A stretch of 64,000 nucleotides of DNA from Winogradskyella flava. GTDB lineage: Bacteria > Bacteroidota > Bacteroidia > Flavobacteriales > Flavobacteriaceae. Below the pieces are notes generated by a model, which ran no database searches, had not been told where the DNA came from, and saw only the letters and a program-made list of their open reading frames with translations. Within the stretch, counting starts at the first letter, position 1. Every line of letters begins with the position of its first letter. Positions 18,512-59,783 of the stretch are shown piece after piece. The stretch is taken from NCBI RefSeq assembly GCF_014243395.1, contig NZ_JACLCP010000001.1:744001-808000 (forward strand), read 5' to 3'. The position numbers and the translations under genes are program-made.

Positions 18512-18543
18512 TATTTTTGGTTAACCAATCTGGTAAACCAATT
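18512..18543 (+). promoter_or_regulatory. Site 1 of the four-copy FadR-type operator, overlapping a -7 box (PL6 operon)
   Basis: Two palindromes, TGGTTAACCA (18518-18527) and TGGTAAACCA (18531-18540), have centres 13 bp apart inside a 27-bp conserved block (18517-18543). The block starts inside a Bacteroidetes -7 element TATTTTTG (18512-18519), so a bound repressor would cover the promoter. TGGTNNACCA fits the tnGTnnnACna consensus known for FadR-subfamily GntR proteins. The centre reads CCAATCTGG, the same orientation as site 3 (49846). It lies about 70 bp before the PL6 start codon. Confidence 0.8.
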
Positions 18544-18614
18544 TTAATTATGACGTATTCTAGAATCACTATTTGAATTTACAGGTTGTTCATTAACTTT
18601 TTTAAAAACATTCC

Positions 18615-20939
18615 ATGAGAAATTCCATTATAGCTTTTTTACTGTTAGTAACACTAATTTCGTGTAAAGAAGTATCGCAATCAGAACTATATATTTCCAA
18701 CATTAAAGATTTAGAGCAAGTGATTTCTAATGCGAAACCTGGGGATGAAATCATACTAAAAAATGGCGTCTATCGTGATGTTCAAATAAAATTTAGGGGC
18801 AAGGGAACAAAAGACAATCCTATTGTTTTAAAAGCCGAAACGCCAGGTGAAGTTTTGATAGAAGGAGAATCGTATCTAAAATTTGGAGGCGAATATTTGG
18901 TTGTTGAAGGTTTACATTTTAAAAATGGCTTTTCACCATCTAATGCAGTAGTGGATTTTAAGATTAGTCACAAAGATGCACCAGACGAAATTGCTAATAA
19001 CTGCAAATTCACCAACTGTGTTATTGAAGATTTTAATAAGCCGAAACGAGACAATAGCGATTTATGGGTACAATTTTGGGGACGACATAATGAGCTAAGC
19101 AACTGCTACATCGCCGGTAAAACCAATAGAGGTCCAACAGTGAGGGTGAGTATTGCAGGTATAGAGAGCATTAATAATTATCATCAAATTGTAAATAACC
19201 ATTTCGGGCCAAGGCCAGTAAAAGGAGGTCCAAGTGGAGAAACTATTCAGTTAGGGGATAGCTATACATCGATGTCGCCAAGTCATACTTACGTTGCTAA
19301 TAACTTATTTGAAGAATGTAATGGTGAGGTAGAAGTGATTTCAAGCAAAACAAATTTTAACGTCTTTAAGAATAATGTCTTTTACAGGAGCGAGGGTTCT
19401 TTGGTAACACGTCATGGTAATTATGTCACAGTTGATGGTAATTATTTTATAGGTGATGGCGTAAATGAAAATTATGGAGGCATTAGAATTATTAATACAG
19501 GACATTGGGTCGTCAATAACTATTTTTATGGTTTAAAAGGAAAGAGTTTCAGAAGCCCTTTAGCGGTTATGAATGGTATTCCTAAGTCACCTTTAAATCG
19601 TTACAACCAAGTCACAGATGTTGTCGTTGCATATAACACTTATGTTAACTGTTCTTCGCCTTGGCAATTTGGTGTTGGACAAAATTTAGCGCAAGCAGAT
19701 GTATTGCCAAAATCCGAAATTCGCTCGGCACGAGCAATTAGAACAACTGTTGCAAATAATATTATATATAATGAAAAGGGCTTGGAAAAGGTAGTGGTCG
19801 AAAACGATAAAGCAGATGGTGTGACATTCAAAAATAACATCATAAATAATCAAGGTTTAGAGTTTAAAGATTTTGATGGAGGTATTGTTGAAGCAACATT
19901 AGAGCTAAGGGAATTATCGGATAATATTTATATTCCTGTAGGTATACCAGACGACTTCGAAGCCTATGATGGTTTCGATTTTAATACGATTGATACTGAT
20001 TTATTAGGTGTGTCTAGACAAGATGACAAGAGTATTGGTGCCATAACTGGTAAAAACGTATCTAATCCGAATGTTTTAGACAAGTCGAAATATGGAACAA
20101 CTTGGTTTTCAAATGAAATAGAAGCTAAGGATCCTGTTACTCATAACGTTTCTAATGTGGAAGAACTTATAGCTAGAATAAATGAAGCAAGTAATGGTGA
20201 TATTATTGCTTTGGCTAATGGCTTTTATAACCTAGATTCATCGTTAGAAATTCAGAAAACGCTTTTAATTCAGTCCCAAGGAAATGAAAGGGCACAATTG
20301 GTATATTCAGGAGAAGCGAATACGCCTCTATTTTCACTACAACCTTATGGAAAACTAACTCTTGATAATGTTGTATTAAAAGGAAACAGTGAGAACTATG
20401 CGTTTTCAAGCCTCAAACAAAACATGTATAATCACTTCGGGCTAACAGTTCAGAATTCAGAAATAAGTGATTTTAGTTATGTGCTAAAAGTTTATAAAGA
20501 GAGCTTTGCAGAACGTATCACTTTTAAGAATACATCAATTTCGAATTGTGAAAACGGTATAGAATTATCAGAAGAAACGAATGATAAGGGTGATTATAAT
20601 ACAGAATATTTAACTATTAATAACTGCAATTTCAATAACATAAAAGCAAATGTGATTGACTATTACAGAGGCGGTTATGATGAATCTACAATCGGAGGAA
20701 ACCTGTTAGTTAGCAACAGTACATTTACTAATTGTGGAGTAAATGAGAAAAACAAAACGCTCTTAAATCATAGAGGTATTATTAATGTTAACATTACTGA
20801 AAACACATTCAAAAATAATCCTGTACAGTTTGTTTCAATTTTATGGGGAGCTAAAAACAATGTAGAATCAGAGAATACTTTAGTTAATTCCGGACAAATA
20901 AAAACTGAGCAGAATTTAAAACTAACCCTGATGTACTAA
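18615..20939 (+). CDS. PL6 alginate lyase, two-domain lipoprotein
   Basis: This 774-residue member of polysaccharide lyase family 6 (chondroitinase-B-like) cuts alginate by beta-elimination. A lipoprotein signal ends at TLISC (Cys about 17). The first right-handed beta-helix (about 30-440) carries the catalytic pair Lys245 (in VISSKTNFNVF) and Arg266 (in LVTRHGNYV). Their spacing of 21 residues equals that of the characterised enzyme AlyGC (K220/R241). A second helical domain follows (about 500-774), as in long PL6 enzymes. It is the first gene of an operon with a kinase, PL7, PL17 and KdgF, under operator site 1. Confidence 0.93.
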   Translation: MRNSIIAFLLLVTLISCKEVSQSELYISNIKDLEQVISNAKPGDEIILKNGVYRDVQIKFRGKGTKDNPIVLKAETPGEVLIEGESYLKFGGEYLVVEGLHFKNGFSPSNAVVDFKISHKDAPDEIANNCKFTNCVIEDFNKPKRDNSDLWVQFWGRHNELSNCYIAGKTNRGPTVRVSIAGIESINNYHQIVNNHFGPRPVKGGPSGETIQLGDSYTSMSPSHTYVANNLFEECNGEVEVISSKTNFNVFKNNVFYRSEGSLVTRHGNYVTVDGNYFIGDGVNENYGGIRIINTGHWVVNNYFYGLKGKSFRSPLAVMNGIPKSPLNRYNQVTDVVVAYNTYVNCSSPWQFGVGQNLAQADVLPKSEIRSARAIRTTVANNIIYNEKGLEKVVVENDKADGVTFKNNIINNQGLEFKDFDGGIVEATLELRELSDNIYIPVGIPDDFEAYDGFDFNTIDTDLLGVSRQDDKSIGAITGKNVSNPNVLDKSKYGTTWFSNEIEAKDPVTHNVSNVEELIARINEASNGDIIALANGFYNLDSSLEIQKTLLIQSQGNERAQLVYSGEANTPLFSLQPYGKLTLDNVVLKGNSENYAFSSLKQNMYNHFGLTVQNSEISDFSYVLKVYKESFAERITFKNTSISNCENGIELSEETNDKGDYNTEYLTINNCNFNNIKANVIDYYRGGYDESTIGGNLLVSNSTFTNCGVNEKNKTLLNHRGIINVNITENTFKNNPVQFVSILWGAKNNVESENTLVNSGQIKTEQNLKLTLMY

Positions 20940-20944
20940 AAATT

Positions 20945-21946
20945 ATGTCAAAAAAAGTGGTCACATTTGGTGAAGTGATGATGCGATTATCGCCACCAGG
21001 CTATGAAAAATTTTCGCAAGCATCTTCATTTGAGCTTGTTTATGGTGGAGGTGAGGCAAACGTTGCCATCTCGTGTGCTTACTTAGGTATGAAGGCTGCC
21101 CACGTCACTCGTTTTCCCAATAATGCGCTCGGAAAAGCCGCTACACAATTTTTGCGTAAACATTGGCTAAGTACTGAGCATGTGATTTACGGGGATGATA
21201 TGATGGGCAAGTATTTTCTTGAAAAAGGCGCTGTTCATAGATCTAGTGAGGTTATTTATGAAAGAGAAGGATCTGCTTTCTCATTGATTGAACCGTCAAT
21301 GATAAATTGGGAAAGCGTACTCAAAGATGCTGATTGGTTTCATTGGACAGGTATTACGCCTGCCATTTCGGATGGTGCTGCTAAGTGTTGCCTAGAGGCC
21401 ATTAAAACAGCCAATAAAATGGGAATAACCGTTTCTGGAGATATTAACTCGCGAAGCAACATGTGGAAATATGGCAAAACCATGCAAGATGTTATACCTG
21501 AATTGGTAGAACATTGTGACGTTGTCATAACTAGTAGTCGTGGCATTCGAGAAATGTTTGGATTGGGTCAATCAGAGGATAGTTTTAATACTTTAGCGAA
21601 AGAATTGATAACGCTTTTTCCTAGTGTGAAAAAAGTAGTTAAAAAAACAAGACGAATGTTGAGTGCTTCGCATAATCAGATACAGGGTAAAATGTGGAAT
21701 GGGAAAGCGTATATTAAAACAGATATGCTCAACATCACTCATATTATAGATCGTGTTGGTACTGGAGATGCTTTTGCGGCAGGTTTAATATATGGCTTAT
21801 TGCATTATGAAGATCAGCAAGCTTTGGATTTTGCCTCAGCTGCTTGTGCACTCAAGCATACTGTTCCTGGAGATGTAAATATAGTGTCTCTCGAAAATGT
21901 ACGAGATTTAATGGAAGGAAACACCACTGGAGCTATAAGACGATAA
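20945..21946 (+). CDS. Diverged PfkB-family kinase, KdgK paralogue
   Basis: This 333-residue PfkB-family protein is clearly related to the KdgK at 38728: shared VVTFGE.M.RL.PPG, VYGGGEANVA, WFHWTGITPAIS, and the catalytic loop DRVGTGDAF (about 263-271). Several conserved sites differ. NEED of the ribokinase NxxE motif (198-201 in the other copy) is SSRG here (197-200). TTLRGS near the nucleotide site is KKTRRM (233-238). DLNYRAKLW is DINSRSNMW. The catalytic Asp remains, so it may act on another 2-keto-deoxy sugar or serve a sensory role. It starts 5 bp after the PL6 stop, inside the alginate operon. Confidence 0.85.
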   Translation: MSKKVVTFGEVMMRLSPPGYEKFSQASSFELVYGGGEANVAISCAYLGMKAAHVTRFPNNALGKAATQFLRKHWLSTEHVIYGDDMMGKYFLEKGAVHRSSEVIYEREGSAFSLIEPSMINWESVLKDADWFHWTGITPAISDGAAKCCLEAIKTANKMGITVSGDINSRSNMWKYGKTMQDVIPELVEHCDVVITSSRGIREMFGLGQSEDSFNTLAKELITLFPSVKKVVKKTRRMLSASHNQIQGKMWNGKAYIKTDMLNITHIIDRVGTGDAFAAGLIYGLLHYEDQQALDFASAACALKHTVPGDVNIVSLENVRDLMEGNTTGAIRR

Positions 21947-22012
21947 ATTAAATAAACTACTGGTTTTGTACCCAAAAAGCCATCATTGTAAGACAAATAA
22001 TTAACCCATAAT

Positions 22013-23053
22013 ATGAACATCAAAACCATTAAATCAATAGTCCAATTTTTATTTTGGCTTGGTGTGGTGTTCAACATAATGAGTTGCCTTGGTGATGATA
22101 GGACATCCAAAAAAGCTGACTCTAAAACAGTAACGACATATCCGAGTGATGTAATTCCATTTATGGATAAATGGAAGATTCTTTTGGGCAATGGTACACG
22201 CTCTGAGGACTTAGTAAATTTTGACAATAAAGATTTTTTCTATGTCGAAAATGATGGTAAAGCAGATTGGGTAATCTATAAAACACCAAATGCCGGTGTT
22301 ACTTCTAAAAATTCAAATAATACGAGAACAGAATTACACCAAAAAGAATATTGGACACCAGAACAAGGAGGGAAATTAACAGGAACTCTAAAGGTGAAAC
22401 ATGTTTCGACGACAGGTGATGCAACAATTGCTTCCTCTTATTGTGTAGTAATTGGGCAAATTCATAGTGATGAAGGTCATGAGAATGAACCGCTTAAAAT
22501 CTATTATAAGAAATTCCCAAGACATACAAAAGGTTCTGTGTTTTGGAATTATGAAATCAACACAAAAGGAAATAATATTGGAAGGTTCGATTATTCAACA
22601 GCAGTTTGGGGTTATGATTTTTCAGTAGTAGGTTCAAACCCTACAGATTATCCAAAAGAGCCAGAAAATGGTATTGAGCTGGGCGAAGAATTTAGTTACG
22701 AAGTTAATGTATACAAAGGTATCATGTATCTCACTTTTACTAGTAAAAACCATAAAACGATAAAATTCACAAAGAGTTTAATACAATCAGAGTTTGCAAC
22801 AAAGGCAGATATTCCTGAACAAGTATTGAAAGTATATGCAAATAGAGAAAAAGGAGGAGGAGTCGAAAGGGAAATGGCATATGCTGGCGAATTAAACTAT
22901 TTTAAACAAGGTGCTTATAATCAAGCTAACGCAAAATCTACTAAATCCGAAGTTTATGGTGGTGACATAAAAAAACAATATGCTTACGGAAGTTATGCCG
23001 AAGTTTGGTTTAAAGAAGGGAATTTAGGTCCCGGAACTCCTCCGTCAAATTAA
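22013..23053 (+). CDS. PL7 alginate lyase, lipoprotein
   Basis: This 346-residue protein has a lipoprotein-type N-terminus (Cys in IMSC, about residue 25) and a single PL7 beta-jelly-roll. All three family motifs are present: R105 in NTRTELHQ, Q149 and H151 in GQIH, and Y302 in YFKQGAYNQ. These are the usual catalytic Arg, Gln, His and Tyr. The QIH form is generally linked to activity on G-containing blocks. It is likely outer-membrane anchored. It is the third gene of the PL6 operon, 6 bp before PL17. Confidence 0.92.
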   Translation: MNIKTIKSIVQFLFWLGVVFNIMSCLGDDRTSKKADSKTVTTYPSDVIPFMDKWKILLGNGTRSEDLVNFDNKDFFYVENDGKADWVIYKTPNAGVTSKNSNNTRTELHQKEYWTPEQGGKLTGTLKVKHVSTTGDATIASSYCVVIGQIHSDEGHENEPLKIYYKKFPRHTKGSVFWNYEINTKGNNIGRFDYSTAVWGYDFSVVGSNPTDYPKEPENGIELGEEFSYEVNVYKGIMYLTFTSKNHKTIKFTKSLIQSEFATKADIPEQVLKVYANREKGGGVEREMAYAGELNYFKQGAYNQANAKSTKSEVYGGDIKKQYAYGSYAEVWFKEGNLGPGTPPSN

Positions 23054-23059
23054 AACGAT

Positions 23060-25336
23060 ATGAAGAAATTAAATAAAATAACGGCACTTGCCTTTCTTGT
23101 AATTACTTTTCTTTCTTGTTTCGAGGAAAAAGAAAGTGCTTCCGCTGTAGCTAGCAATTCTGAATCGGAGACAACCCAAGAGCACCCAAAACTTATTTTA
23201 ACGGCTCAAGGTGTGAAAAACATTCGAGCACAATTGGGTAGTATCCCAATTTTCGATAAAACTTTAGAAAAGGTCAAGGCAGAAGTTGATGCCGAAATTG
23301 TTGCAGGAATCGAAGTGCCTATTCCAAAGGACTATTCAGGTGGCTATACCCATTCAAGACATAAACAGAATTGGTTTATCTTGCAAAAAGCAGGTGTTTT
23401 ATATCAGATTCTAGACGACGAAAAATATGCGAAGTATGTTAAGGATATGTTGATGCAATATGAAGCCTTGTATAAAACATTGCCACTACACCCAAAAACA
23501 AGATCATATGCTAGGGGTAAATTATTCTGGCAATGTTTAAATGATTCTAATTGGTTGGTCTATGTGAGTCAAGCCTATGATTGTATATATAACTATTTAT
23601 CTGAAGAAGAACGTAACACGCTAGAAACAAATTTATTTAGACCATTTGCAGATCATATTTCAATTGGCAGTCCGCAGTTTTATCAACGGGTTCATAATCA
23701 TAGTACCTGGGGAAATGCAGCTGTTGGTATGATTGGTTTGGTGATGAATGATGAAGAGTTAATTGATCGTGCTTTGTACGGAATTAAAGACTTAAAATTA
23801 GATGCAAATAAAAAAGATGACGATGGCGGATTTTTAAATAAAGACGGCAAGGCAGGCTTCTTAGCCAATATCGAAGAGCCTTTTTCACCAGATGGCTATT
23901 ATAATGAAGGGCCTTATTATCAGCGCTATGCAATGTATCCGTTTTTAGTCTTTGCGGAAGGCTTGCATAATGTAAAGCCTGAGCTCAAGATTTTTGAATA
24001 TAAAGATGGTGTACTTCTCAAATCTATTAATGCCTTGTTGAATTTGTCCGATGCAGATGGAGATTTTTTTCCGCTTAACGATGGTCAGAAGGGCATGTCT
24101 TATTATAACGGGTCTCTAGTAACTGCTGTTGATATTTCTTATCATTACGGCAATCAAGATCCTGGTCTACTAAGTATAGCTAAAGAGCAAAATCAGGTCT
24201 TGTTGGACGATTCTGGTTTAGCCGTGGCACTTGGTATTAAAAATGGCAAGGAAAAACCTTTCAATAAAAAATCAATTAATCTGTCAGATGGGCCGAAAGG
24301 AGCGCAAGGTGGCGTTGGTATTTTAAGGAACAAAGATATTGAGCTTGTTTTTAAGTATGCGTCACAAGGCTCTAGTCATGGACATTACGATAAGCTATCT
24401 TATTCATTGTATGAAAACGGAGAAGAAGTCATTCAAGATTATGGTTTAGCACGTTTTGTAAATATCGAACAAAAAGGTGGTGGAAATTATCTCAAAGAAA
24501 ATAAAACTTGGGCCAAACAAACTATTGCGCACAATACCGTAACGCAAAATGAAGTCTCACATTACGGTGGTAAATACGATATAGGAAGTCAGCATCATCC
24601 AGAGTTGCAATATTATAATTTCGATAATGAAGATATTCAAGTTGTTAGTGCCAAGGAGAACAATGCATATCCTGGAACTGAAATGCTTAGAACTATGGCT
24701 TTATTAAGCGATAATGATTTTGAAAAGCCATTTATGCTCGATATTATGAAAGTGACTTCCAAGAAAGCAAATCAATACGATTTTCCTTATTATTATTTTG
24801 GCCAAGTGATACAAACCAATTTTGAATATAAAACACCCGAAACCTTAAAGCCTTTAGGGCCAAGAAATGGGTATCAGCATTTATTTGTAGAAAGCATGGC
24901 AAATGCCAAAAATGAAAACTCTAAGTTCACTTGGATGAATAATCAAAAGTTTTATACATTAACAACGTTGACAAATAATAAGGACGAATTACTATTTACT
25001 AGAATTGGAGCTAATGATCCTGAATTTAATTTACGAAGAGATCCAGGTTTGTTGCTAAGGAGAAAAAACACCAAGAACACGATTTTTGTGTCGGTCATAG
25101 AGACTCATGGGAGTTATAGTCCAATAACTGAATCTGCGGTTAATTCAAAAAGTAATATGTCAGAATTAAAAGTAGTTTATAATAGTGAAGATTACACGGC
25201 TATTAAACTCACTCATGTCAATGGTAAGGTTCAATTATTTATAACAGTAAATAGAGAGACCTCGAAAGAAAAAAAGCATAACTTAAAAATTGACAATAAG
25301 AATTATGAGTGGTCTGGTTCTTATTATTTTGAATAA
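23060..25336 (+). CDS. PL17 oligoalginate lyase (heparinase II/III-like)
   Basis: This 758-residue lipoprotein (Cys in TFLSC, about residue 21) has an N-terminal alpha/alpha toroid (about 45-380) and a C-terminal beta-sheet heparinase II/III domain (about 400-758). Signature residues are N213 and H214 in VHNHSTWGN, the Tyr-rich NEGPYYQRY (about 282-290), and H440 in SSHGHYDKLSY, matching the active site of exolytic PL17 enzymes. It releases unsaturated monouronate from alginate oligomers, probably in the periplasm. It lies between PL7 and kdgF, whose substrate it makes. Confidence 0.93.
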   Translation: MKKLNKITALAFLVITFLSCFEEKESASAVASNSESETTQEHPKLILTAQGVKNIRAQLGSIPIFDKTLEKVKAEVDAEIVAGIEVPIPKDYSGGYTHSRHKQNWFILQKAGVLYQILDDEKYAKYVKDMLMQYEALYKTLPLHPKTRSYARGKLFWQCLNDSNWLVYVSQAYDCIYNYLSEEERNTLETNLFRPFADHISIGSPQFYQRVHNHSTWGNAAVGMIGLVMNDEELIDRALYGIKDLKLDANKKDDDGGFLNKDGKAGFLANIEEPFSPDGYYNEGPYYQRYAMYPFLVFAEGLHNVKPELKIFEYKDGVLLKSINALLNLSDADGDFFPLNDGQKGMSYYNGSLVTAVDISYHYGNQDPGLLSIAKEQNQVLLDDSGLAVALGIKNGKEKPFNKKSINLSDGPKGAQGGVGILRNKDIELVFKYASQGSSHGHYDKLSYSLYENGEEVIQDYGLARFVNIEQKGGGNYLKENKTWAKQTIAHNTVTQNEVSHYGGKYDIGSQHHPELQYYNFDNEDIQVVSAKENNAYPGTEMLRTMALLSDNDFEKPFMLDIMKVTSKKANQYDFPYYYFGQVIQTNFEYKTPETLKPLGPRNGYQHLFVESMANAKNENSKFTWMNNQKFYTLTTLTNNKDELLFTRIGANDPEFNLRRDPGLLLRRKNTKNTIFVSVIETHGSYSPITESAVNSKSNMSELKVVYNSEDYTAIKLTHVNGKVQLFITVNRETSKEKKHNLKIDNKNYEWSGSYYFE

Positions 25337-25357
25337 AAAACAATAAAAACAAAACAT

Positions 25358-25735
25358 ATGAAAAGATTTAGTGAAAAGTATATCATTGCAAAAGAAAAGA
25401 AATGGGAGGTACTTGGGGGAGGAGTATCAAGAAAATTTTTAGGTTACGATAATCAAATCATGATGGTGAGAGTGAAATTTGAAAAAGGCGCATTAGGTGC
25501 TCCGCATCAACATTTTCATACACAAGCTACTTTTTGTGTTTCTGGTAAATTTGAATTTGAAATTGACGGAGAAAAGAAAATTGTAGAAGCAGGAGATGGT
25601 GTTTATATCGAGCCTAATTTGTTACATAGCGCAGTTTGCCTGGAAGAAGGCGAGCTAATTGACACCTTCAGTCCCGTAAGAGAAGATTTCTTAAGTGGCG
25701 GTGAAGTGTCTTATTTTGGAGATAAACAGTCTTGA
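25358..25735 (+). CDS. kdgF: KdgF, unsaturated uronate-linearising cupin
   Basis: This 125-residue cupin matches KdgF, which opens the 4,5-unsaturated monouronate ring to the linear keto-aldehyde DEH. The metal site lies in GAPHQHFHTQATFCVSGKFEFE (about residues 46-67) and the second motif GVYIEPNLLHSAVCLEEGELIDTFSP, with the conserved His and the aromatic/Asp end segment. No signal peptide is present, so it is cytoplasmic. It is the last gene of the PL6 operon. The next 263 bp hold the operator and promoter of the SusC operon. Confidence 0.92.
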   Translation: MKRFSEKYIIAKEKKWEVLGGGVSRKFLGYDNQIMMVRVKFEKGALGAPHQHFHTQATFCVSGKFEFEIDGEKKIVEAGDGVYIEPNLLHSAVCLEEGELIDTFSPVREDFLSGGEVSYFGDKQS

Positions 25736-25835: not shown

Positions 25836-25867
25836 TATATTTGGTTGACCAGATTGGTTAACCAATT
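25836..25867 (+). promoter_or_regulatory. Site 2 of the four-copy operator, overlapping a -7 box (alginate SusC operon)
   Basis: Palindromes TGGTTGACCA (25842-25851) and TGGTTAACCA (25855-25864) have centres 13 bp apart. The -7 element TATATTTG (25836-25843) runs into the operator. A TTG at 25814-25816 lies 19 bp upstream and fits the -33 element. The centre reads CCAGATTGG, the reverse orientation of sites 1 and 3. It lies about 130 bp before the susC start. Confidence 0.82.
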
Positions 25868-29214: not shown

Positions 29215-29220
29215 TTAATT

Positions 29221-40444: not shown

Positions 40445-40449
40445 AAATT

Positions 40450-49840: not shown

Positions 49841-49872
49841 TATATTTGGTAAACCAATCTGGTAAACCAATT
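49841..49872 (+). promoter_or_regulatory. Site 3 of the four-copy operator, overlapping a -7 box (second SusC/SusD)
   Basis: Two identical palindromes TGGTAAACCA (49847-49856 and 49860-49869) have centres 13 bp apart. The -7 element TATATTTG (49841-49848) runs into the operator. Orientation is as at site 1. It lies about 80 bp before the second susC, tying this locus to the alginate GntR/FadR regulator as well as to its own HTCS. Confidence 0.82.
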
Positions 49873-49952: not shown

Positions 49953-52900
49953 ATGCAAAAACAACTTAAAAATTTAAAGGTGAAGTGGATACCTATATTG
50001 GTATTTACTTTATTTGGCTTTGCTCTTAATGCGCAGCAAACAGTCACTGGTAAAGTAACCAGCGCGTCCGATGGAATGTCGTTGCCAGGAGTGAATATAG
50101 TGGTCAAAGGAACGACGCAAGGTGCTTCTACTGATTTAGATGGCATGTATAGCATTAATGTTCCTAGTCAAGAATCTATATTAGTGTTTAGTTATTTAGG
50201 TTTTACGACGCAAGAGATTGCAGTGGGTTCTAGAACTGAAATAAACGTAGCTCTTGCAGATGACGCAGCACAACTTAATGAAATAGTAGTAGTTGGTTAT
50301 GGTTCTCGTAAGAAAAGTGATCTTACAGGCGCAGTTTCATCCGTAAACTCAAAGGAACTAACTGCTTTTCCATTATTAGATGCATCACAAGCATTACAAG
50401 GTCGTGCAGCAGGTGTTGTCGTTCAATCCAATAATGGTGGTGAGCCAGGTGCTCCTATTAATATACAAATTAGAGGAAATACCTCTATTGGAGCTAGTAG
50501 TAATCCACTGATTGTAGTAGATGGTTTTGTGGGTGCAGTATTCCCACAACCTGCTGACATCGCATCTATGGAAATTCTCAAAGATGCTTCGGCAACAGCT
50601 ATATATGGGTCTAGAGGTGCCAATGGTGTTGTTTTAGTGACTACAAAAAAGGGTAGTAAAGGGAAGCTAACGGTAGAAATAAATTCTAATTATTCAACTC
50701 AAAATACTACAAATGAATTAGATTTATTAAATGCAGATCAATTCGCAGCGTACCAAACAACTCTAAATTCGGGTTATACTCAGGGAGATGCAAATACCGA
50801 TTGGCAGGATTTGCTATATAGAAACGGTAGTACTCAAAATCATCAATTTTCATTTTCAGGAGGAAGTGAAAAAGTGAATTTTTATGCGTCGACCAATTAC
50901 TTCAAGCAAGAAGGGGTTATTGTAAATTCTGAATTTGAGCGTATCTCATTTTTAGCAAATGTTGATGCTGAAGTGACAGATAAATTGAAATTAGGAATGA
51001 ATCTATTTGGTAGTAGAGGAAATCAAGATGGTGTTCCTACACAATCAACAGGCCAAACTGCTAATGGTGGTGGAGATGATGTTGTGTCGCTAACTTTCCG
51101 ATTCGCACCAGATTTAGGAATAAAAGATGAGAACGGAAACAATACGATTAACTCTGTTGGAGATAATGTAGACAATCCATATGCTATTGCAACTGAGGGT
51201 GTAAATAGTACAAAAAATGATAATTTCAGAGCGAATTTGTACGCTGATTACGAAATTTTAGAAGGACTGAGTTTCAAAACAACTTTTGGCTATAGTACAA
51301 GAAACCAAAATTTTGGCCTTTTTAGACCATCAACGTTAATTGTTACTGCTGGAGGTGGTACAGGAGGTAGTGCCACTATACAAAATTTAAAGAATACTAA
51401 TATATTAAGTGAGAATTATTTAACATACAATAGAGAGGTTGGTAAAGGTGACTTAACGTTATTAGCAGGTTATTCTTATCAAAAAAATACTACAGAAACT
51501 TTTTCTGCGGGTGCTCAAGGATTCACTTCAGATTCTTTTTCGTTCTCTAACTTAGGATCAGGTGCTGTACAGTTAATTCCAACATCTTCTTTTTCTGAAA
51601 CAGAAATACAATCACAATTTGGTAGAATAAATTTTGATTGGGATGATAAATATTTGTTTACCGCTACAGTAAGACGAGACGGTTCATCAAATTTTGCGAA
51701 AAATGAAAAATATGCTATTTTTCCTTCAGGTGCAATTGGCTGGAAAATTTCAAACGAAGAGTTTATGCAAGGCATCGAACAAATTTCTAATCTAAAACTT
51801 AGAGCTAGTTATGGTGTTACGGGTAATCAAGGTATTGCACCTTATGGTTCACTAGCAACTTTTGGCTCAGTATTTACACCAATTAATGGACAGACTGTAA
51901 TTAATGTAACTCCAGGTCAAGTAGCTAATCCAGATTTAAAGTGGGAATCTTCTTATCAAACAAACATTGGTTTAGATATAGGTCTATTGGATAATAGAAT
52001 TTCATTATCATTAGATTATTATAATATTGATACTAAAGATTTGATTATAGCAGATACTAGTCAGCCACAATACCTAGGTTTTTTAAACCCTGCTAGTTTA
52101 AGAAATGTTGGAGAAATCAATAATCGAGGTTTTGAGATTAACTTGAATACACGAAATATTAGTAATGAGAATTTCACGTGGACTACAGATTTTAATTGGT
52201 CTACAAACAAAAACGAATTTGTTACTTTATTAAATGGAGAAGATATCTTTCAAGATGCGTCTCCTGGTTATTTTAATATAGACAGAACCCATGTGCTCAG
52301 AGAAGGAGAGTCTGTAGGTGTTTTTTGGGGTTATGAATACCAAGGTGTTTACCAAGGTGGTGATTTACCTGCTGGAACAGGTCTTTTGCCTGGTGCAGAA
52401 GCTGGTGACCAATTGTTTACTGATTTAGATGGTGATGGAGAGATTACACCTGGAGACGATCAAAAAATAATAGGGGATCCTACACCAAATTGGACATTTG
52501 GTATTACTAATAACTTTACGTACAAAAATTTTGATTTAAATATCTTTTTTCAAGGTTCACAAGGCGGTGATATTATGAATTTAACAGCTGTGCAGTTATT
52601 TAATGGAGATTCTAATGCGACTACAGATATACTAAATTCGTGGACGCCAACAAATACCGATACTAATATCCCTCGTGCGAGACTGAGAGGAAAAGAAATC
52701 TCTTCTCGTTTTGTCGAAGATGGTAGTTATATCAGATTAAAGAATATAGCGATAGGTTATAATTTACCTCTTGAGCTTGTTGAGAAGATAGGTTTGGATG
52801 GTGTCAGAGTTTCTATAAGTGCGCAAAACTTACTCACTATTACAGACTATTCTGGCTTAGATCCTGAGGTCAATTTCTTAGGAAGCGGTGGTTCAGGAAA

Positions 52901-52982
52901 TCAAAATACATTTAATGGGTTTGATTTTGGAAATTATCCGACCGTTAAATCGTTCAATTTTGCGGTTAATTTAAGATTTTAG
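49953..52982 (+). CDS. SusC-like TonB-dependent transporter (second uronate locus)
   Basis: This 1009-residue SusC/RagA protein has a signal peptide (to ALNAQ) and a carboxypeptidase-like domain (about 28-105, SLPGVNIVVKGTTQGASTDLDG). The plug carries the family segments IQIRGNTSIGASSNPLIVVDG and DASATAIYGSRGANGVVLVTTKKG. A barrel ending in VNLRF closes the protein. It differs clearly from the SusC at 25999 in length and barrel sequence, so a distinct oligosaccharide is likely. It is paired with the SusD 26 bp downstream and preceded by operator site 3. Confidence 0.94.
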   Translation: MQKQLKNLKVKWIPILVFTLFGFALNAQQTVTGKVTSASDGMSLPGVNIVVKGTTQGASTDLDGMYSINVPSQESILVFSYLGFTTQEIAVGSRTEINVALADDAAQLNEIVVVGYGSRKKSDLTGAVSSVNSKELTAFPLLDASQALQGRAAGVVVQSNNGGEPGAPINIQIRGNTSIGASSNPLIVVDGFVGAVFPQPADIASMEILKDASATAIYGSRGANGVVLVTTKKGSKGKLTVEINSNYSTQNTTNELDLLNADQFAAYQTTLNSGYTQGDANTDWQDLLYRNGSTQNHQFSFSGGSEKVNFYASTNYFKQEGVIVNSEFERISFLANVDAEVTDKLKLGMNLFGSRGNQDGVPTQSTGQTANGGGDDVVSLTFRFAPDLGIKDENGNNTINSVGDNVDNPYAIATEGVNSTKNDNFRANLYADYEILEGLSFKTTFGYSTRNQNFGLFRPSTLIVTAGGGTGGSATIQNLKNTNILSENYLTYNREVGKGDLTLLAGYSYQKNTTETFSAGAQGFTSDSFSFSNLGSGAVQLIPTSSFSETEIQSQFGRINFDWDDKYLFTATVRRDGSSNFAKNEKYAIFPSGAIGWKISNEEFMQGIEQISNLKLRASYGVTGNQGIAPYGSLATFGSVFTPINGQTVINVTPGQVANPDLKWESSYQTNIGLDIGLLDNRISLSLDYYNIDTKDLIIADTSQPQYLGFLNPASLRNVGEINNRGFEINLNTRNISNENFTWTTDFNWSTNKNEFVTLLNGEDIFQDASPGYFNIDRTHVLREGESVGVFWGYEYQGVYQGGDLPAGTGLLPGAEAGDQLFTDLDGDGEITPGDDQKIIGDPTPNWTFGITNNFTYKNFDLNIFFQGSQGGDIMNLTAVQLFNGDSNATTDILNSWTPTNTDTNIPRARLRGKEISSRFVEDGSYIRLKNIAIGYNLPLELVEKIGLDGVRVSISAQNLLTITDYSGLDPEVNFLGSGGSGNQNTFNGFDFGNYPTVKSFNFAVNLRF

Positions 52983-53008
52983 TATTAAATTTATATAAAA
53001 AATATATT

Positions 53009-54535
53009 ATGAAAACGTATAAGTATTTATTCTTATTGATAGGTATATCAATATTTGGATGTTCAGATTTGGAAGAAGAGCCGGTTGGTTTATTGGCTCC
53101 AGATGGGTTTTTTAATACAGTTGATGACATTGAGACTGCAGCAAATGGAGCCTATGGACACATGACTCATGAAGATTTCTGGGGAAGAAAAATGTCTTTA
53201 ACATTAATGCTTAGGGGTGACATGGTAGACATAGGGGACCCAACAACATCAACAAGACGAATTGAACATAATGAGTTCAACGTGCCTACGGATAATGGTA
53301 TGATTAGTGGTTACTGGTTAAGGGTTTATCAAATGATAGCGGCTGCTAACCAAGCTATTGCGGGAGCAGATGATGTTAATGTAGCAGACGAAATTAAGAA
53401 CCCAATGACTGCAAGAGCATATTTTGCAAGAGCTTTTGCTTATTTTCATCTGGTAAGACAATTTGGTGATATTCCTTACATAGATGCACCAATAACTGAT
53501 TTAGAAGCTTCAAGTTCAATAAGTAAGACATCAGCAGCAGATGTTTACGCAAATATTATTGCAGATTTACAATTTGCTAAAACATGGTTGCCAGATACTC
53601 AGATAGCAAGATCTATTCCTGCGAAATCCGCGGCACATTCATATTTGGCATTGGTATATTTAACAATAGGCGATTATCAAAATGCTTACACAGAAGCAAA
53701 AGGAGTTATTGATAATGAAAGTGTATACAACTTAGGGTTGGAAGCTGATTTTCAATCTTTATTTGATGCGTCACAAATAGATAATTCTGTAGAACCAATA
53801 TTTACTTTAGATTTTATTGGTGCCAGTAATGGTGATGATGGTAGAGACTATCAAGCAGCGCTAACAGGTCTTAGAGATGATGAACAGTATGGCCTTGGAG
53901 GTGGCTGGTCAGTTGGAGTACCTTCTTTGGAGGTTTATAATACATGGGATGGTAGAGATTACAGAAAAGCTGTTAGTTTAGATACAACGGGAGTTTTTGA
54001 TGGCGTTCTTCAGCCTTATCAAGTTTTTAGAGAAAGTGGTGCAGGTAGGGGTGTCAACAGGCCTCATATCGCAAAATACACAAGAGCAATTGGTGAGACG
54101 GCAACAGGGAATGGTAGAGGTTCAAATGCTAACTATATGATGATACGCTATGCTGAAGTACTATTAATAGCTGCAGAAGCTCATAATGAAATAAGTGGTG
54201 GTAGTGCAGAGGCAATGGGTTATGTTAACAGGGTAAGGGCACGTGCTAGGAATAGTAACGGAGTTACTTCTGGATTATTCCCAGAGGATATTGCTGGATT
54301 GTCTCAAGATGCATTAAGAGATGTAATATTGGAAGAGCGTAAATGGGAATTGGCCTTTGAGTTCAAAAGATGGTATGATATTGCTAGAAGACAATTGGGT
54401 TCTGATGTGTTTAGTGCTTCGGGGTTAGAGGGTGACAAACCTAATTTTGATCCAAGCCAAGATTACTTGTTCCCACTACCGGCTCAAGAATTAGCAAGAA
54501 ACCCTAATTTACTACCACAGAATCCAGGATACTAG
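53009..54535 (+). CDS. SusD-like glycan-binding lipoprotein (second uronate locus)
   Basis: This 508-residue SusD/RagB protein has a lipoprotein signal ending at IFGC (Cys about 18). The family start VGLLAPDGFFNTVDDIETAANGAYGHM and the TARAYFARAFAYFHLVRQFGDIPYI segment (about 134-153) are typical. So is the end with YVNRVRARAR, VILEERKWELAFEFKRWYDIARR and the closing LFPLPAQELARNPNLLPQNPGY. It forms the outer-membrane complex with the upstream SusC. A strong terminator lies 115 bp downstream, so GH88 and later genes need another promoter or read-through. Confidence 0.94.
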   Translation: MKTYKYLFLLIGISIFGCSDLEEEPVGLLAPDGFFNTVDDIETAANGAYGHMTHEDFWGRKMSLTLMLRGDMVDIGDPTTSTRRIEHNEFNVPTDNGMISGYWLRVYQMIAAANQAIAGADDVNVADEIKNPMTARAYFARAFAYFHLVRQFGDIPYIDAPITDLEASSSISKTSAADVYANIIADLQFAKTWLPDTQIARSIPAKSAAHSYLALVYLTIGDYQNAYTEAKGVIDNESVYNLGLEADFQSLFDASQIDNSVEPIFTLDFIGASNGDDGRDYQAALTGLRDDEQYGLGGGWSVGVPSLEVYNTWDGRDYRKAVSLDTTGVFDGVLQPYQVFRESGAGRGVNRPHIAKYTRAIGETATGNGRGSNANYMMIRYAEVLLIAAEAHNEISGGSAEAMGYVNRVRARARNSNGVTSGLFPEDIAGLSQDALRDVILEERKWELAFEFKRWYDIARRQLGSDVFSASGLEGDKPNFDPSQDYLFPLPAQELARNPNLLPQNPGY

Positions 54536-54650
54536 GATATTAGTGTTTCAAATAAGAGAGAGTTAGTCTTGTGTCTTTTAATCCTTTGGATTTGTGGACT
54601 TCATGAATACAAATTCAAAGGGGTGGGACATAAATAACGACTTATAAATA

Positions 54651-54687
54651 AAAAAATCGGCTCTAATGTAAGAGCCGATTTTTTTTT
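54651..54687 (+). terminator. Strong terminator after second susCD
   Basis: A 14-bp perfect stem (AAAAAATCGGCTCT with AGAGCCGATTTTTT), a 6-nt loop AATGTA and an unbroken T run to 54687. It separates susC/susD from the GH88-GH2-lyase genes. Confidence 0.92.
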
Positions 54688-54924
54688 ATGTATAAACCAT
54701 GTGATCAGGTTTTATGAATATGGTCAATGGGTTAGGCTATAGAATAAGTATAACTTGTTTTCATTCTATCAATACTGTGCATTGTATGTTTATATACCTA
54801 AATTGTACTTATGAATCTATATATTTTACTGGATTTAATATCTTAGAATAAATTAATTACATACTAAAGAAAACTATTTTAAGTTTCTGGATATGTCTAA
54901 AATAACTGACTTTAACTCATCAAT
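54688..54924 (+). other. Gene-free leader before GH88
   Basis: This is the remainder of the 389-bp gap after susD. It is AT-rich with no frame of note, no copy of either operator and no clear TAnnTTTG box. A promoter for the GH88 operon must lie here if the terminator at 54651 is efficient; it may be HTCS-activated and so weak by consensus. Confidence 0.4.
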
Positions 54925-56109
54925 ATGACAAGATCAATTTATTCATTCTTTATATGCATCATTTTTTTGACGGCCTATAGCTGCAAAGACAACCCAAAAC
55001 ATACAGATGACATTGCTGAATCGCCAGAGCAACAATTAAAACAGCGGTATTCAAAACTAGTTACTTATCCGTTGGATTCAACAGCGTTTCCAAGAAGTGT
55101 AAATTTAAAAACCAATAACCTTAAAAAAGTACCCTCCAAGGACTGGACCAGTGGTTTTTTTGCGGGTAATCTTTGGCAAATCTATGAGCTAACTGGAGAT
55201 ACCGCATACAAGAATAAGGCTAAAAAATGGACGGCATTTATTGAAAAAGAAAAATTCAACGATCGTACTCACGATATGGGCTTTAAAGTTTTTAATAGTT
55301 TTGGCAAAGGTCTTAAAATTGAGGATGATCAAGAATATAAAGACAATATATTAATGAGCGCTAAAACATTAATTACAAGATATAACGATACTGTTGGTAG
55401 CATAAGGTCATGGGACTTTAATAAGAAAAGATGGAAATTTCCTGTAATTATTGATAACATGATGAATTTAGAACTTCTGTTTGAAGCCACAAAGATTTCA
55501 GGAGATAGTATATTTCATAATATAGCAGTGAAACATGCAAATACTACATTAAAAAATCATTTTAGACCAAACAATAGTACTTGGCATGTGTTGGATTATG
55601 ACCCTGAAAATGGAGACATTAGAATGCGTGTAACGCATCAAGGTATCAATGATGATTCGTCATGGGCCAGAGGACAAGCTTGGGGAATATACGGCTTCAC
55701 CATGGCGTATAGATATACAAAGGATCAAAGGTACTTAGATCAGGCTAAAGCAACTGCCGCTTTTTTTCTTGATCATCCCCATCTTCCGGAAGATGGGATT
55801 CCATATTGGGATTTTGACGCACCAAATATACCAGATGAACCTAGGGATGTTTCCGCTGGCGCTATAGTTGCTTCTGCATTAACTGAACTCTATGCCTACA
55901 CTGATAATGAATATTATTTAAACTACAGTAAAAAAGTAATACATACGATAAAATCCTCAGACTATATTTTAGATAAAGACATTGAATATCCATTTATATT
56001 AGATCATAGTTCAGGCGATTGGTCTAAGAGATCAGAAATGGATGAGCCCATAGTATATGGAGATTATTATTTTTTAGAAACCTTATTGAGATTAAAAGAT
56101 TTAAAATAA
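54925..56109 (+). CDS. GH88-type unsaturated uronyl hydrolase, lipoprotein
   Basis: This 394-residue lipoprotein (Cys in TAYSC, about 20) is an alpha6/alpha6-barrel enzyme of family GH88, which removes the 4,5-unsaturated uronate that polysaccharide lyases leave at the non-reducing end. Family marks are DWTSGFFAGNLWQIYE (about 73-88), Asp117 in THDMGFKVF, Asp177 in DNMMNLELLFEA and HQGINDDSSWARGQAWGIYGF (about 233-253). The two catalytic Asp are 60 apart, like D88/D149 of the Bacillus enzyme. A GH105 assignment is less likely. It implies a lyase upstream in the pathway and sits 1 bp before the GH2 gene. Confidence 0.93.
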   Translation: MTRSIYSFFICIIFLTAYSCKDNPKHTDDIAESPEQQLKQRYSKLVTYPLDSTAFPRSVNLKTNNLKKVPSKDWTSGFFAGNLWQIYELTGDTAYKNKAKKWTAFIEKEKFNDRTHDMGFKVFNSFGKGLKIEDDQEYKDNILMSAKTLITRYNDTVGSIRSWDFNKKRWKFPVIIDNMMNLELLFEATKISGDSIFHNIAVKHANTTLKNHFRPNNSTWHVLDYDPENGDIRMRVTHQGINDDSSWARGQAWGIYGFTMAYRYTKDQRYLDQAKATAAFFLDHPHLPEDGIPYWDFDAPNIPDEPRDVSAGAIVASALTELYAYTDNEYYLNYSKKVIHTIKSSDYILDKDIEYPFILDHSSGDWSKRSEMDEPIVYGDYYFLETLLRLKDLK

Positions 56110-56110
56110 T

Positions 56111-58537
56111 ATGAAATTAAAAATGATAGGTTTAAGATATATAGTTATAAGTTTTTTCTTCTTAGTAATTGTCTCGTGTGGAAATACTACTGCAGATAAT
56201 GACAATATAATTCGAAGCAAAGTAAACATTAATGACAACTGGGCTTACTTAGAAAATAATACAGAAGATATTGGTGTTGTGTTAGACCAAAGCAATTGGG
56301 AAAATATAAATTTACCTCATACTTGGAACGCGCTTGATGCGACTGATTTAGAGCCGGGCTATAGAAGAACGGCAAGCTGGTATAGGAAAGAATTAGATGT
56401 ACCATCCATTGCCGCTAGTCAAATCTATCAAATTTATTTTGAAGGTGTGAATATTGTTAGTGAGGTCTATATCAATGGCAAAAAAGTTGGAGGACATACT
56501 GGCGGTTATATTGGTTTTACGATAGATATAACAGAAAGCATTACTTCAGGAAAAAACGAACTCTTAGTTAGAGTAGACAACGGATATAATCCAGAGGTGA
56601 TTCCATCTCAAAAGAGTGATTTCTTCATTTTTGGTGGCATCACCAGAGATGTGTGGTTAGAAACACTTCCTAAACAGCACTTAACCAATTTAAAAATAAC
56701 AACACCGAATGTTTCAAATGAAAAAGCAGACTTAAGAGCTACGGTTAAGGTTAGTGTTCTAAATTCAGATACAAAAATCAAGGCGATATTGACTGATGCT
56801 AATGGTGCTGAAGTCAAATCTTCTCTTTTTGATGTGGTGAATGGAAATTCAACTATAAGTTTTGAGAACTTAAAGGATATTAAACTTTGGGATACGGATA
56901 ATCCTAATCTCTATACTTTAAATGTCCAGCTCCTGGAAAATGATAATGTAAAAGATGAAATATCTGATAGGGTTGGTTTTAGATGGTTCGAATTTAAAGA
57001 TCATGGTGCTTTTTACCTTAATGGTAAACGCTTATTGTTAAGAGGCACGCACCGCCATGAAGAACATGCAGGTGTAGGTGCAGCGATGACCAACGACCAG
57101 CATAGAGCGGACATGGAACTCATAAAAGATATGGGAACCAATTTTGTACGGTTGGCCCACTACCCTCAAGACCCAGAGGTCTACAAGGCTTGTGATGAAT
57201 TGGGTCTATTGGTTTGGGACGAATTACCTTGGTGCAGAGGAGGTCTAGGTAATGATAATTGGAAGAAAAACACAAAGCATATGCTTAAGGAAATTATAAA
57301 TCAAAATTATAATCATCCTAGTATTATATTTTGGTCCTTAGGCAATGAGATTTATTGGTTACCAGATTTTGAAGATGGAGATAATAGAGAACATATCAAT
57401 ATCTATTTAAAAGAACTAAATGATTACGCTCATGAATTAGATCCGACTCGAAAAACAGCTATTAGAAAATATTATGAAGGCGCTGATATTGTCGATGTGT
57501 TTTCGCCATCAATTTGGTCAGGATGGTATTCTGGTAGTTATAAGAGTTATCGAAAAGCAGTTGACCAGTATAAAGCAGAATACAAACATTTTATACACAC
57601 AGAATATGGTGGCTCAAGTCATTTGGGACGACATACTGAAAATCCAATTACTGGAGAAGGTAAAATTCAAGCAGACGGTTGGGAAGAAGCTATCGTGCAA
57701 ACGGATGTCGCCAATATTGCACAAATAGGTGATTGGAGTGAAAATTATATTGTGGATTTGTTTGATTGGCATTTGCGTATTTCTGAAAATGATTCAACGT
57801 TTATAGGTAATGCGCAGTGGGCTTTTAAAGATTTTGGAACACCCTTACGACCAGAAAATGCCATTCCATATATGAATCAAAAAGGATTGGTAGATAGGAA
57901 CAATAACCCTAAAGATGCCTTTTATGTCTTTAAAAGTTATTGGAACAAAACAGATCCTTTTACCTATATAGAGTCACATACATGGACAGAGCGTCAAGGA
58001 CCTAAAGGATTGGCAAGGGACGTTAGTGTTTATAGTAATTGTCCAGAAGTAGAATTGTTTCTCAATGGTGAAAGCTTGGGTACTAAAAAGCGTGATATAA
58101 AATCATTCCCAGCGGCTGGATTAAATTGGAGTTTAAATTTTAAAGAAGGAAAAAATAAATTAGTTTCTGTTGGTAAAACCGTGGATGGTAAAGAGGTTAA
58201 TGACGAATTGGATATTGACTATCGATTTACTAAGAACGGTAAAGCCAAAGGACTTAAGTTAGACTATGAGCTATTGGATAATGGTAATTATTTAGTAACT
58301 GCGATTGCACATGATAGCAATGGTTTGCGTTGTTTGGATTATGAGGATAGAGTCTATTTTCAATGCTTAGCTGGTGGAGAAACAAAGAAGAATTTAGGAA
58401 CACCAACAGGAAGTGAATCTATTGAAATGGCTAACGGAAAGGCGTCAATAGAGGTAAAACCTTTTTCAAAAGACGAGCCACTTAAAATGATGGTTCTAAA
58501 TCAAAGTTTTAAAGGCACCTATTTAACAATAGAATAA
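56111..58537 (+). CDS. GH2 glycosidase (beta-galactosidase or beta-glucuronidase type), lipoprotein
   Basis: This 808-residue lipoprotein (Cys in VIVSC, about 21) has the GH2 order. A sugar-binding jelly roll comes first (about 35-195, with NLPHTWNALDATD and GGITRDVWLE), followed by an Ig-like sandwich (about 196-300). The TIM barrel (about 300-590) has acid/base Glu413 in SLGNEIYW and nucleophile Glu498 in IHTEYGGSS. C-terminal Ig-like domains of the DUF4982 type close the protein (about 610-808, VELFLNGESLGTKK). Sequence alone does not set the sugar; with uxaC in the locus a beta-glucuronidase is attractive. It is exported, so it acts on oligomers in the periplasm. Confidence 0.9.
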   Translation: MKLKMIGLRYIVISFFFLVIVSCGNTTADNDNIIRSKVNINDNWAYLENNTEDIGVVLDQSNWENINLPHTWNALDATDLEPGYRRTASWYRKELDVPSIAASQIYQIYFEGVNIVSEVYINGKKVGGHTGGYIGFTIDITESITSGKNELLVRVDNGYNPEVIPSQKSDFFIFGGITRDVWLETLPKQHLTNLKITTPNVSNEKADLRATVKVSVLNSDTKIKAILTDANGAEVKSSLFDVVNGNSTISFENLKDIKLWDTDNPNLYTLNVQLLENDNVKDEISDRVGFRWFEFKDHGAFYLNGKRLLLRGTHRHEEHAGVGAAMTNDQHRADMELIKDMGTNFVRLAHYPQDPEVYKACDELGLLVWDELPWCRGGLGNDNWKKNTKHMLKEIINQNYNHPSIIFWSLGNEIYWLPDFEDGDNREHINIYLKELNDYAHELDPTRKTAIRKYYEGADIVDVFSPSIWSGWYSGSYKSYRKAVDQYKAEYKHFIHTEYGGSSHLGRHTENPITGEGKIQADGWEEAIVQTDVANIAQIGDWSENYIVDLFDWHLRISENDSTFIGNAQWAFKDFGTPLRPENAIPYMNQKGLVDRNNNPKDAFYVFKSYWNKTDPFTYIESHTWTERQGPKGLARDVSVYSNCPEVELFLNGESLGTKKRDIKSFPAAGLNWSLNFKEGKNKLVSVGKTVDGKEVNDELDIDYRFTKNGKAKGLKLDYELLDNGNYLVTAIAHDSNGLRCLDYEDRVYFQCLAGGETKKNLGTPTGSESIEMANGKASIEVKPFSKDEPLKMMVLNQSFKGTYLTIE

Positions 58538-58553
58538 TTCGTAGTCATCCATT

Positions 58554-59747
58554 ATGGAGCACTTGCTTTTTAAATCGCGTTTTTCGGTTGAAATATGTTT
58601 GGGTGTCATATGTATTTTCTTTTTGACATGTTCTACACCTAAATCAGATTTCGATATAGTTTCAGATTTAGAGAAGACACGCATTACTGAGGAAGCGCAT
58701 AGCTACTTGGGAGCTCAACCTATTACCATAACATCATATATAGCAGAAAGAAGTGCAGGTAGCATTCATGATTTTTATTCTGAAGGCGACTATTGGTGGC
58801 CCAATCCTAAATATCCAGACAGTGCATACATTAGAAAGGATGGGTTAAGTAATCCTGATAATTTCGTCGCACACAGAAAAGTAATGATTAGGTTGAGTTT
58901 AATTTCAGGGGCACTAGCTTCAGCATATTTGGTTACCGAAGATGAAAAATATATCGAGGCTCTATTACCTCATTTAAAAGCTTGGTTTGTAAATCCCAAT
59001 ACCAAGATGAATCCTAATTTATTATATGCACAAGCCATTAAAGGTAGGGTTACAGGAAGAGGGATAGGTATTATTGATACCATTCATTTAATCGAAGTTG
59101 CTAAGGCAACTCGAGTTGTAGGGCAATCAAAATTAATATCGGAGGCTGATTTTGAGAAAATAAAACAATGGTTTTCAGACTATACCAACTGGCTTACAAC
59201 GCACAGTTTTGGTAAAAAAGAACGAGACAATGGAAACAACCATAGCGTTTGCTGGGCAATGCAGGTTGCCGCTTTTGCTGAATTGACTCAAGATGAAAAT
59301 CAATTGAAAAACTGTAGAATGTTCTTTAAAGATGTCTTATTGCCGGAACAAATGGCGGAAGATGGTAGTTTTCCTAAAGAGTTATCCCGAACCAAACCCT
59401 ATGGCTATTCTATTTTTAATTTAGATGCCATGTTTGGTCTTGCCCAAATAGTATGGACTGAAGAGGATAACTTATTCTTTTATAATACAGCGAACGGAAA
59501 AAGTCTGAAATTAGGCCTAGAGTTCTTATATCCTTATCTAGCTGATAAATCCAAATGGCCATATCAAAAAGATGTCATGTATTGGGAAGATTGGCCTACA
59601 AAACAACCTTCTATTTTGTTTGGTGCTTTACAATACGATGAAACTAGATATTTGACATTATGGAAACGTCTTCCTGAGATACCTAACAAGCAAGAAATCC
59701 TCAGAAACATGCCAATTAGGTATCCTTTGTTGTGGATAAAGAAATAA
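58554..59747 (+). CDS. Alginate-lyase-fold (PF05426) enzyme, PL5/PL38-like
   Basis: This 397-residue protein has a lipoprotein-like start (Cys in FLTC, about 26) and an alpha/alpha toroid fold of the Alginate_lyase family. Recognisable parts are GDYWWPNPKYPDS (about 76-88), KERDNGNNHSVCWAMQVAAFAEL (about 220-242; the NNHS pair is the likely catalytic Asn-His), and FPKELSRTKPYGYSIFNLDAM (about 276-296; Arg and Tyr). The WW-N-PKYP and NNHS features are closer to the PL38/glucuronan-lyase-like branch than to classical PL5. It would make the unsaturated ends that the GH88 removes. It ends 10 bp before the promoter of the next gene. Confidence 0.8.
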   Translation: MEHLLFKSRFSVEICLGVICIFFLTCSTPKSDFDIVSDLEKTRITEEAHSYLGAQPITITSYIAERSAGSIHDFYSEGDYWWPNPKYPDSAYIRKDGLSNPDNFVAHRKVMIRLSLISGALASAYLVTEDEKYIEALLPHLKAWFVNPNTKMNPNLLYAQAIKGRVTGRGIGIIDTIHLIEVAKATRVVGQSKLISEADFEKIKQWFSDYTNWLTTHSFGKKERDNGNNHSVCWAMQVAAFAELTQDENQLKNCRMFFKDVLLPEQMAEDGSFPKELSRTKPYGYSIFNLDAMFGLAQIVWTEEDNLFFYNTANGKSLKLGLEFLYPYLADKSKWPYQKDVMYWEDWPTKQPSILFGALQYDETRYLTLWKRLPEIPNKQEILRNMPIRYPLLWIKK

Positions 59748-59751
59748 TCAC

Positions 59752-59783
59752 TATATTTGGTAAACCAGATTGGTAAACCAATT
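59752..59783 (+). promoter_or_regulatory. Site 4 of the four-copy operator, overlapping a -7 box (orphan T9SS protein)
   Basis: Two identical palindromes TGGTAAACCA (59758-59767 and 59771-59780) have centres 13 bp apart. The -7 element TATATTTG (59752-59759) runs into the operator and a TTTGTTG near 59726-59732 fits a -33 element. The centre reads CCAGATTGG, as at site 2. It lies about 90 bp before the start codon of the next gene. Confidence 0.82.

Follow-up and report, generated by a model that had tools for sequence, protein, structure and literature searches.

Which protein reads the 27-bp blocks that recur at four promoters in Winogradskyella flava, and how might it control the genes behind them? 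The blocks lie in a 64,000-nucleotide stretch of contig NZ_JACLCP010000001.1 (positions 744,001 to 808,000), referred to here as the window. Our analysis indicates that they are very probably the operators of AusR, a FadR-type GntR repressor of alginate use encoded at position 34686 of the window; the assignment of the sites to this protein is made by co-occurrence.

A first-pass annotation of the window had described 27-bp blocks at 18517-18543, 25841-25867, 49846-49872 and 59757-59783, each holding two palindromes with centres 13 bp apart and each fused to a TAnnTTTG element, the Bacteroidota -7 box, and we recovered all of this as described. The pattern TGGTNNACCA-N3-TGGTNNACCA occurs exactly at 18518, 25842, 49847 and 59758; no other place in the window matches it even when three mismatches are allowed, and 100 dinucleotide shuffles of the window gave a mean of 0.19 matches at this threshold (maximum 1). 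The spacer between the TGGTNNACCA units is 3 bp, which places the palindrome centres exactly 13 bp apart; the N2 spacer that had been proposed as a search pattern finds a single match with three mismatches, away from the sites. The annotation had also distinguished two orientations of the block. The underlying difference between ATC and GAT spacers is real, but it only marks the inner flanking base at which the pair differs from the 12-bp form of the unit, TTGGTNNACCAA. The -7 box starts 6 bp ahead of the first palindrome at all four sites, all of them on the + strand: at 18512..18519 for the PL6 operon promoter (site 1, 18518..18540, with units at 18518-18527 and 18531-18540), at 25836..25843 for the SusC1 promoter (site 2, 25842..25864; TTG 19 bp upstream of the box, at 25814), at 49841..49848 for the SusC2 promoter (site 3, 49847..49869; TTG absent at the -33 distance) and at 59752..59759 for the promoter of an orphan gene (site 4, 59758..59780; TTG 19 and 22 bp upstream).

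The product of ausR (34686..35387, + strand) has a GntR winged helix-turn-helix domain at residues 15-77 (PF00392, 2.3e-19) followed by an FCD domain at residues 103-223 (PF07729, 1.5e-25), the domain order that defines the FadR subfamily, as the annotation had proposed. Its predicted structure has a mean predicted local distance difference test score (pLDDT) of 77 and matches FadR-type GntR structures in Foldseek, with a template modelling (TM) score of about 0.5 over the whole chain and of 0.76-0.80 by target length for the C-terminal part against DhdR. The unit TGGTNNACCA is itself of the FadR-subfamily kind, defined as a TKGT/ACMA palindrome with a centre of 2 or 3 nt (PMC4494728). Its centre is of 2 nt, as in the UxuR-type minority described in that survey, and not of 3 nt as in the tnGTnnnACna consensus that had been invoked earlier.

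The site and the regulator are distributed together almost perfectly, in indirect agreement with the earlier proposal that the 34686 protein acts on these sites. Among 299 genomes of the family (one drawn sample, completeness floor 90, AusR called at E <= 1e-20), 84 carry an exact double site and 89 carry AusR; 83 have both, one has the site only, six the regulator only and 209 neither. The reversed double pattern, searched for exact matches, was absent from all 299. Pairs with a single mismatch, mostly of TGGTTTTCCA-kind units, are present in every one of the six AusR-only genomes (one or more in each), and in the sole site-only genome the double site falls inside a SusC-like frame. In a sample of the phylum, the double site was found in 12 of 392 genomes, all of them from the 46 rows that belong to the own family (0/346 elsewhere), and the reversed control in 3. 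A PL7 alginate lyase is present in 87 of the 299 genomes, and the discordant cases show that the site tracks ausR rather than PL7, since the double site is found in all four genomes with AusR and no PL7 and in neither of the two with PL7 and no AusR.

A different regulator might nevertheless bind the blocks. The LacI-type protein encoded at 37556 and the hybrid two-component protein encoded at 45521 both lie in the cluster, and of the four GntR-domain proteins of the genome, AusR included, one of 203 aa encoded at C4:525 kb likewise combines GntR and FCD domains, so that the consensus alone would suit it (the other two are frames of 359 and 504 aa). The consensus, however, is of the FadR-subfamily type (PMC4494728), which would be unexpected for the LacI-type and hybrid proteins. 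The second GntR+FCD protein occurs in 42 of the 299 genomes, only 17 of which have the double site (compared by eye), against 83 of the 89 with AusR. In addition, ausR itself has a lone site ahead of it in 41 of the 80 loci that we built around ausR orthologues 75-83% identical to ours, the best of 187 relatives. We thus consider another regulator to be quite improbable.

How AusR would act is suggested by the position of the units. In Flavobacterium johnsoniae, transcription is described as often starting 4 or 5 nt after the box (PMC6847099). With a start 4 nt after the box, unit 1 would span about -6 to +4 and unit 2 about +8 to +17. Each 10-bp palindrome would accommodate one AusR dimer, with the units in tandem at a strict pitch of 13 bp. 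Without alginate, dimers on both units would mask the box and the start, perhaps cooperatively, and RNA polymerase could not open the promoter. Sugar intermediates derived from alginate would release AusR, and the promoters of the PL6 operon, SusC1, SusC2, the orphan gene and two distant PL6 genes would then fire together. The idea, already present in the annotation, of a repressor covering the -7 element fits indirectly with predicted sites that overlie both the box and the expected start, as those of a steric repressor would.

The same positions bear on two readings in which the blocks do not bind a repressor. Two of the four window promoters have no TTG at the usual -33 distance, as might be expected if the bound protein recruited polymerase instead of blocking it; the units overlie the -7 box and the region past the expected start, however, and AusR of Zobellia is described as a repressor (PMC8286568, PMC8073546), which leaves an activator with very little probability. 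The blocks could also encode an RNA element, an attenuator or terminator in which the arms form a leader hairpin, as they are nearly palindromic and followed by T-rich sequence. Against this, the -7 box reaches into the first arm, so that the RNA would begin inside it. Moreover, among 109 adjacent exact pairs the NN letters of the two units agree in 54 and are complementary in 14, where independence would give 39.7 and 21.2, the opposite of what a stem would produce. An RNA element is, in our estimation, just as hard to credit as an activator.

The arrangement recognised as a putative AusR operator in the window recurs in most of the 80 loci. Counting the partners (up to two mismatches) of each exact palindrome, with pairs of exact sites counted twice, we found 260 at 13 bp, 50 at 26 bp and 9 at 39 bp, and 0-6 at any other distance up to 60 bp. 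When arrays are defined by at least one exact unit and further units with up to two mismatches, the loci contain 112, of which 70 have two units, 38 three and 4 four. They also hold 78 lone palindromes, 41 of them just ahead of ausR; the others may be there by chance. The 109 adjacent exact pairs of the 80 loci and the window have ATT (30), ATC (29), GAT (16), AAT (14) or GTT (10) as spacer, with 10 others. An exact box in the same register accompanies 98 of the 112 arrays, and at least one array is found in 72 of the 80 loci. Of the 14 arrays without the exact box, eight lie ahead of PL17, and all eight have TATATTGG starting 5 rather than 6 bp before the palindrome. Of 87 box-bearing arrays (window included), 46 have a TTG whose gap is exactly 19 and 53 have one at gaps of 17-23, compared with 6 and 5 in two control ranges.

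The genes taken as next after the 98 box-bearing arrays matched SusC1 (62), PL17 (8), SusC2 (6), MFS (4), PL6 (3), PL7 (3) and AusR (2), with a sorting-domain match only in seven cases and no match in three. Three features of these loci are recorded on their own account. L109-L113 have the variant unit TGGTTTTCCA / TGGAAAACCA on the same 13-bp grid. A metagenome contig labelled Saprospiraceae (L076:10001-10699) carries an ausR gene 76% identical to that of the window together with an array, through transfer or wrong binning. Finally, a single contig of Polaribacter sp. MSW5 holds two ausR-like loci (L033 and L034), only one of which has an array.

The existence of lone sites matters for a reading in which a single dimer binds each block, its true target being the everted repeat in the middle, ACCA-N3-TGGT, with an accessory role for the outer halves. 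Every double site contains this inner repeat, and the block as a whole is nearly palindromic. Arrays are nonetheless extended by whole units, to three and four, and a lone complete TGGTNNACCA stands before ausR in 41 of the 80 loci with the TGGT half of the upstream slot present in 0/41 and the ACCA half in 8/41. We judge the one-dimer reading improbable, although less so than those already discussed. In these 41 loci the exact lone palindrome falls in the 60 bp ahead of ausR, as happens in 0.025% of shuffled segments. For 31 of them, the start of the palindrome is 19 or 20 bp past that of a TAnnTTT box, compared with 19 for the unit-2 register elsewhere; in six there is no TAnnTTT box in range. 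Since this palindrome stands at the unit-2 register without the TGGT half of unit 1, ausR seems to use slot 2 alone, an occupancy that should give weak self-repression of the gene.

Elsewhere in the 3.85-Mb genome, a search for the double site with up to three mismatches returned 18 places: five exact, one with one mismatch, one with two and 11 with three. Six of these have no or one mismatch; the list given in the annotation had lacked two of them, outside the window, at C1:353429 (exact) and C7:105032 (one mismatch). Each lies ahead of a PL6 lyase gene, which brings the PL6 genes of this genome with a double operator to three out of three. The place with two mismatches, C7:154392, was rejected as it falls within the coding frame of a metallopeptidase. 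Outside the array sites the genome has six lone exact copies of TTGGTNNACCAA, four of them inside open frames of at least 120 aa, and none of the six has a partner at 13 bp (at least 5 mismatches). Of the four PL7 matches of the genome, two belong to operons of the window and two lie at C5:147.8 kb and, a weak match, at C1:1409 kb; no array was found near the latter two in the stretches examined. One lone exact 10-bp palindrome is located about 1.4 kb from the outside-window PL7 match in the L107 stretch.

Several observations weigh against AusR as the protein acting on these sites. At up to three mismatches, the reversed control pattern is found at 27 places in the genome, more than the 18 of the real one, and only the six sites with no or one mismatch therefore stand out. 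Judged by eye, the site at C7:105032 has TATCTTTG 12 bp ahead of the palindrome instead of 6, and that at C1:353429 lacks an exact TAnnTTTG in register. The lone operator before ausR is degenerate in the window, where its slot holds a remnant with two mismatches (34657..34666, + strand). Eight of the 80 loci have no array, four of which end at contig edges, and site 3 is preceded by the hybrid two-component gene at 45521, a possible second input. Lastly, ausR and alginate genes co-occur, and only six discordant genomes separate them.

The genes behind the sites, labelled by Pfam matches and by similarity to window genes, are consistent with an alginate regulon; all are on the + strand. Site 1 precedes an operon (18615..25735) encoding PL6 (PF14592), a PfkB kinase (PF00294), PL7 (PF08787), a PL17-type lyase (PF07940/PF05426) and a KdgF-type cupin (PF07883); its fourth gene matches the oligoalginate lyase family NF042990 under the cut-off of that family. 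Site 2 is followed by SusC1, SusD1, two PKD-type proteins and PL7 (25999..34557), then by ausR and, downstream of it, genes for an MFS transporter and an SDR reductase (35412..37480). The AusR-type gene is thus located in an alginate locus with lyase, SusC/D and transporter genes, and its neighbours are similar in the relatives examined. Site 3 precedes SusC2, SusD2, a GH88-like protein, GH2 and a PF05426 lyase (49953..59747). A SusC2-type gene 65-67% identical to that of the window stands behind an array a few kb from ausR in two other genomes (L116 in G194 and L118 in G130), and on these grounds the second SusC/D pair is probably an alginate importer as well. The co-regulation of PL6, SusC1, SusC2 and the orphan gene anticipated by the annotation receives indirect support, as counterparts of each sit behind such arrays elsewhere. 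Between the SusC1 and SusC2 operons we also observed a 170-aa LacI-type protein (40450-40962), with a helix-turn-helix and a partial sugar-binding domain, that looks like a shortened copy of the nearby full-length LacI at 37556. A 553-aa protein (43813-45474) has no Pfam match and a weak, sub-cut-off NCBIfam match to a hyaluronic acid lyase family, and is possibly a distant lyase. The hybrid two-component regulator (45521-49597) lies directly upstream of the SusC2 promoter, and this operon may have two inputs.

The gene behind site 4 (59872..61023, + strand) encodes a protein with a sorting domain for the type IX secretion system (T9SS) and a body that has no family in Pfam or NCBIfam. Its predicted model has a mean pLDDT of 44, too poor for a fold search. 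Using the body as query, with the sorting domain excluded, we found homologues in six of the 299 genomes (its own included), all six of which carry ausR (p = 0.0006); four immediately follow an array that has an exact box, and two are the second gene after a PL7 lyase with an array promoter. As all six accompany ausR and stand behind arrays, it is plausible that the 59872 protein is a member of the regulon and an alginate-binding or alginate-active surface protein. Seven arrays of the 80 loci were first labelled as preceding this gene, a label we withdrew as the matches are confined to the sorting domain that the proteins share and cover no more than 60-122 residues. A second T9SS-secreted family, of about 300 aa and with a shared stretch like SDCxCxxWINK, is found behind arrays in several of the 80 loci and is probably another unstudied target.

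The class of regulator and of mechanism considered here is already known, as is the arrangement in copies, from reports on Zobellia galactanivorans. Its AusR is described as a GntR repressor of most alginate-use genes that is released by alginate intermediates (PMC7874173, PMC8286568, PMC8073546), in agreement with the mention of Zobellia in the annotation, and its operator as occurring in single, double or triple copies (PMC7874173, citing Dudek et al. 2020, doi 10.1093/nar/gkaa533). We named the window protein AusR for its likeness to the Zobellia protein in domains, location and predicted operator; no Zobellia record is among the best 80 of the 187 relatives' loci. As in Zobellia, a GntR gene lies in the alginate locus; here the organism is another, and the targets include three PL6 genes, a second SusC/D operon and an orphan secreted protein. 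Flavobacterium UMI-01 has an alginate cluster, published earlier, in which two genes are GntR-like and -33/-7 promoters have been predicted (PMC4306948). What is added here is the pitch and the -7 register across the family, the single operator that occupies the unit-2 slot ahead of ausR at roughly half of the loci, and the orphan protein as a regulon member. We found no description of the 13-bp pitch in the open-licence literature, and do not claim that it is unpublished.

Two other systems also come close to this arrangement. UxuR-type operators of the FadR subfamily share the TKGT/ACMA palindrome with a 2-nt centre, and tandem arrays are not mentioned in the available passages of PMC4494728, a table of which counts 0, 1 and 0 regulators from Bacteroidetes in three subfamilies, with FadR apparently in the first column. 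NanR of E. coli, bound to (GGTATA)3, is likewise a GntR repressor with a FadR-type fold that places several dimers on close tandem promoter repeats. Its dimers are described as about half a turn apart on GGTATA repeats, whereas the putative AusR units are full palindromes 13 bp apart. The cooperativity of NanR is reported to require a 32-residue N-terminal extension (PMC8012715), and residue 14 of AusR aligns with NanR residue 32. AusR has no such extension, its GntR domain starting at residue 15. The fixed pitch suggests that binding needs at least two close repeats, yet in 41 of the 80 loci a single unit stands alone ahead of ausR.

At 10.5 bp per turn, 13 bp corresponds to an offset of about a quarter turn between units. 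With considerably less confidence than we attach to the operators themselves, and leaning rather against it than for it, we put forward the idea that the pitch may be a structural rule. AusR dimers would stand in a helical row, each turned by about a quarter turn, through a contact unlike that of NanR. The filling of the slots would set the tightness of the promoter (alginate genes using slot 1, over the -7 box, together with slots 2, 3 and 4 as present, and ausR using slot 2 alone), and the grid might serve as a readable code for the regulon that brings new alginate proteins to light, the orphan secreted family among them. The array allows much of the alginate regulon to be read from DNA alone, with a very low background, and reveals scattered genes that gene order would miss, namely two PL6 lyases and an orphan secreted protein. 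Its fixed pitch and -7 register offer a clean test of cooperativity by a FadR-type repressor without the long N-terminal arm of NanR, and the same arrays a test of how the number of copies determines how tightly marine Bacteroidota control their polysaccharide-use genes.

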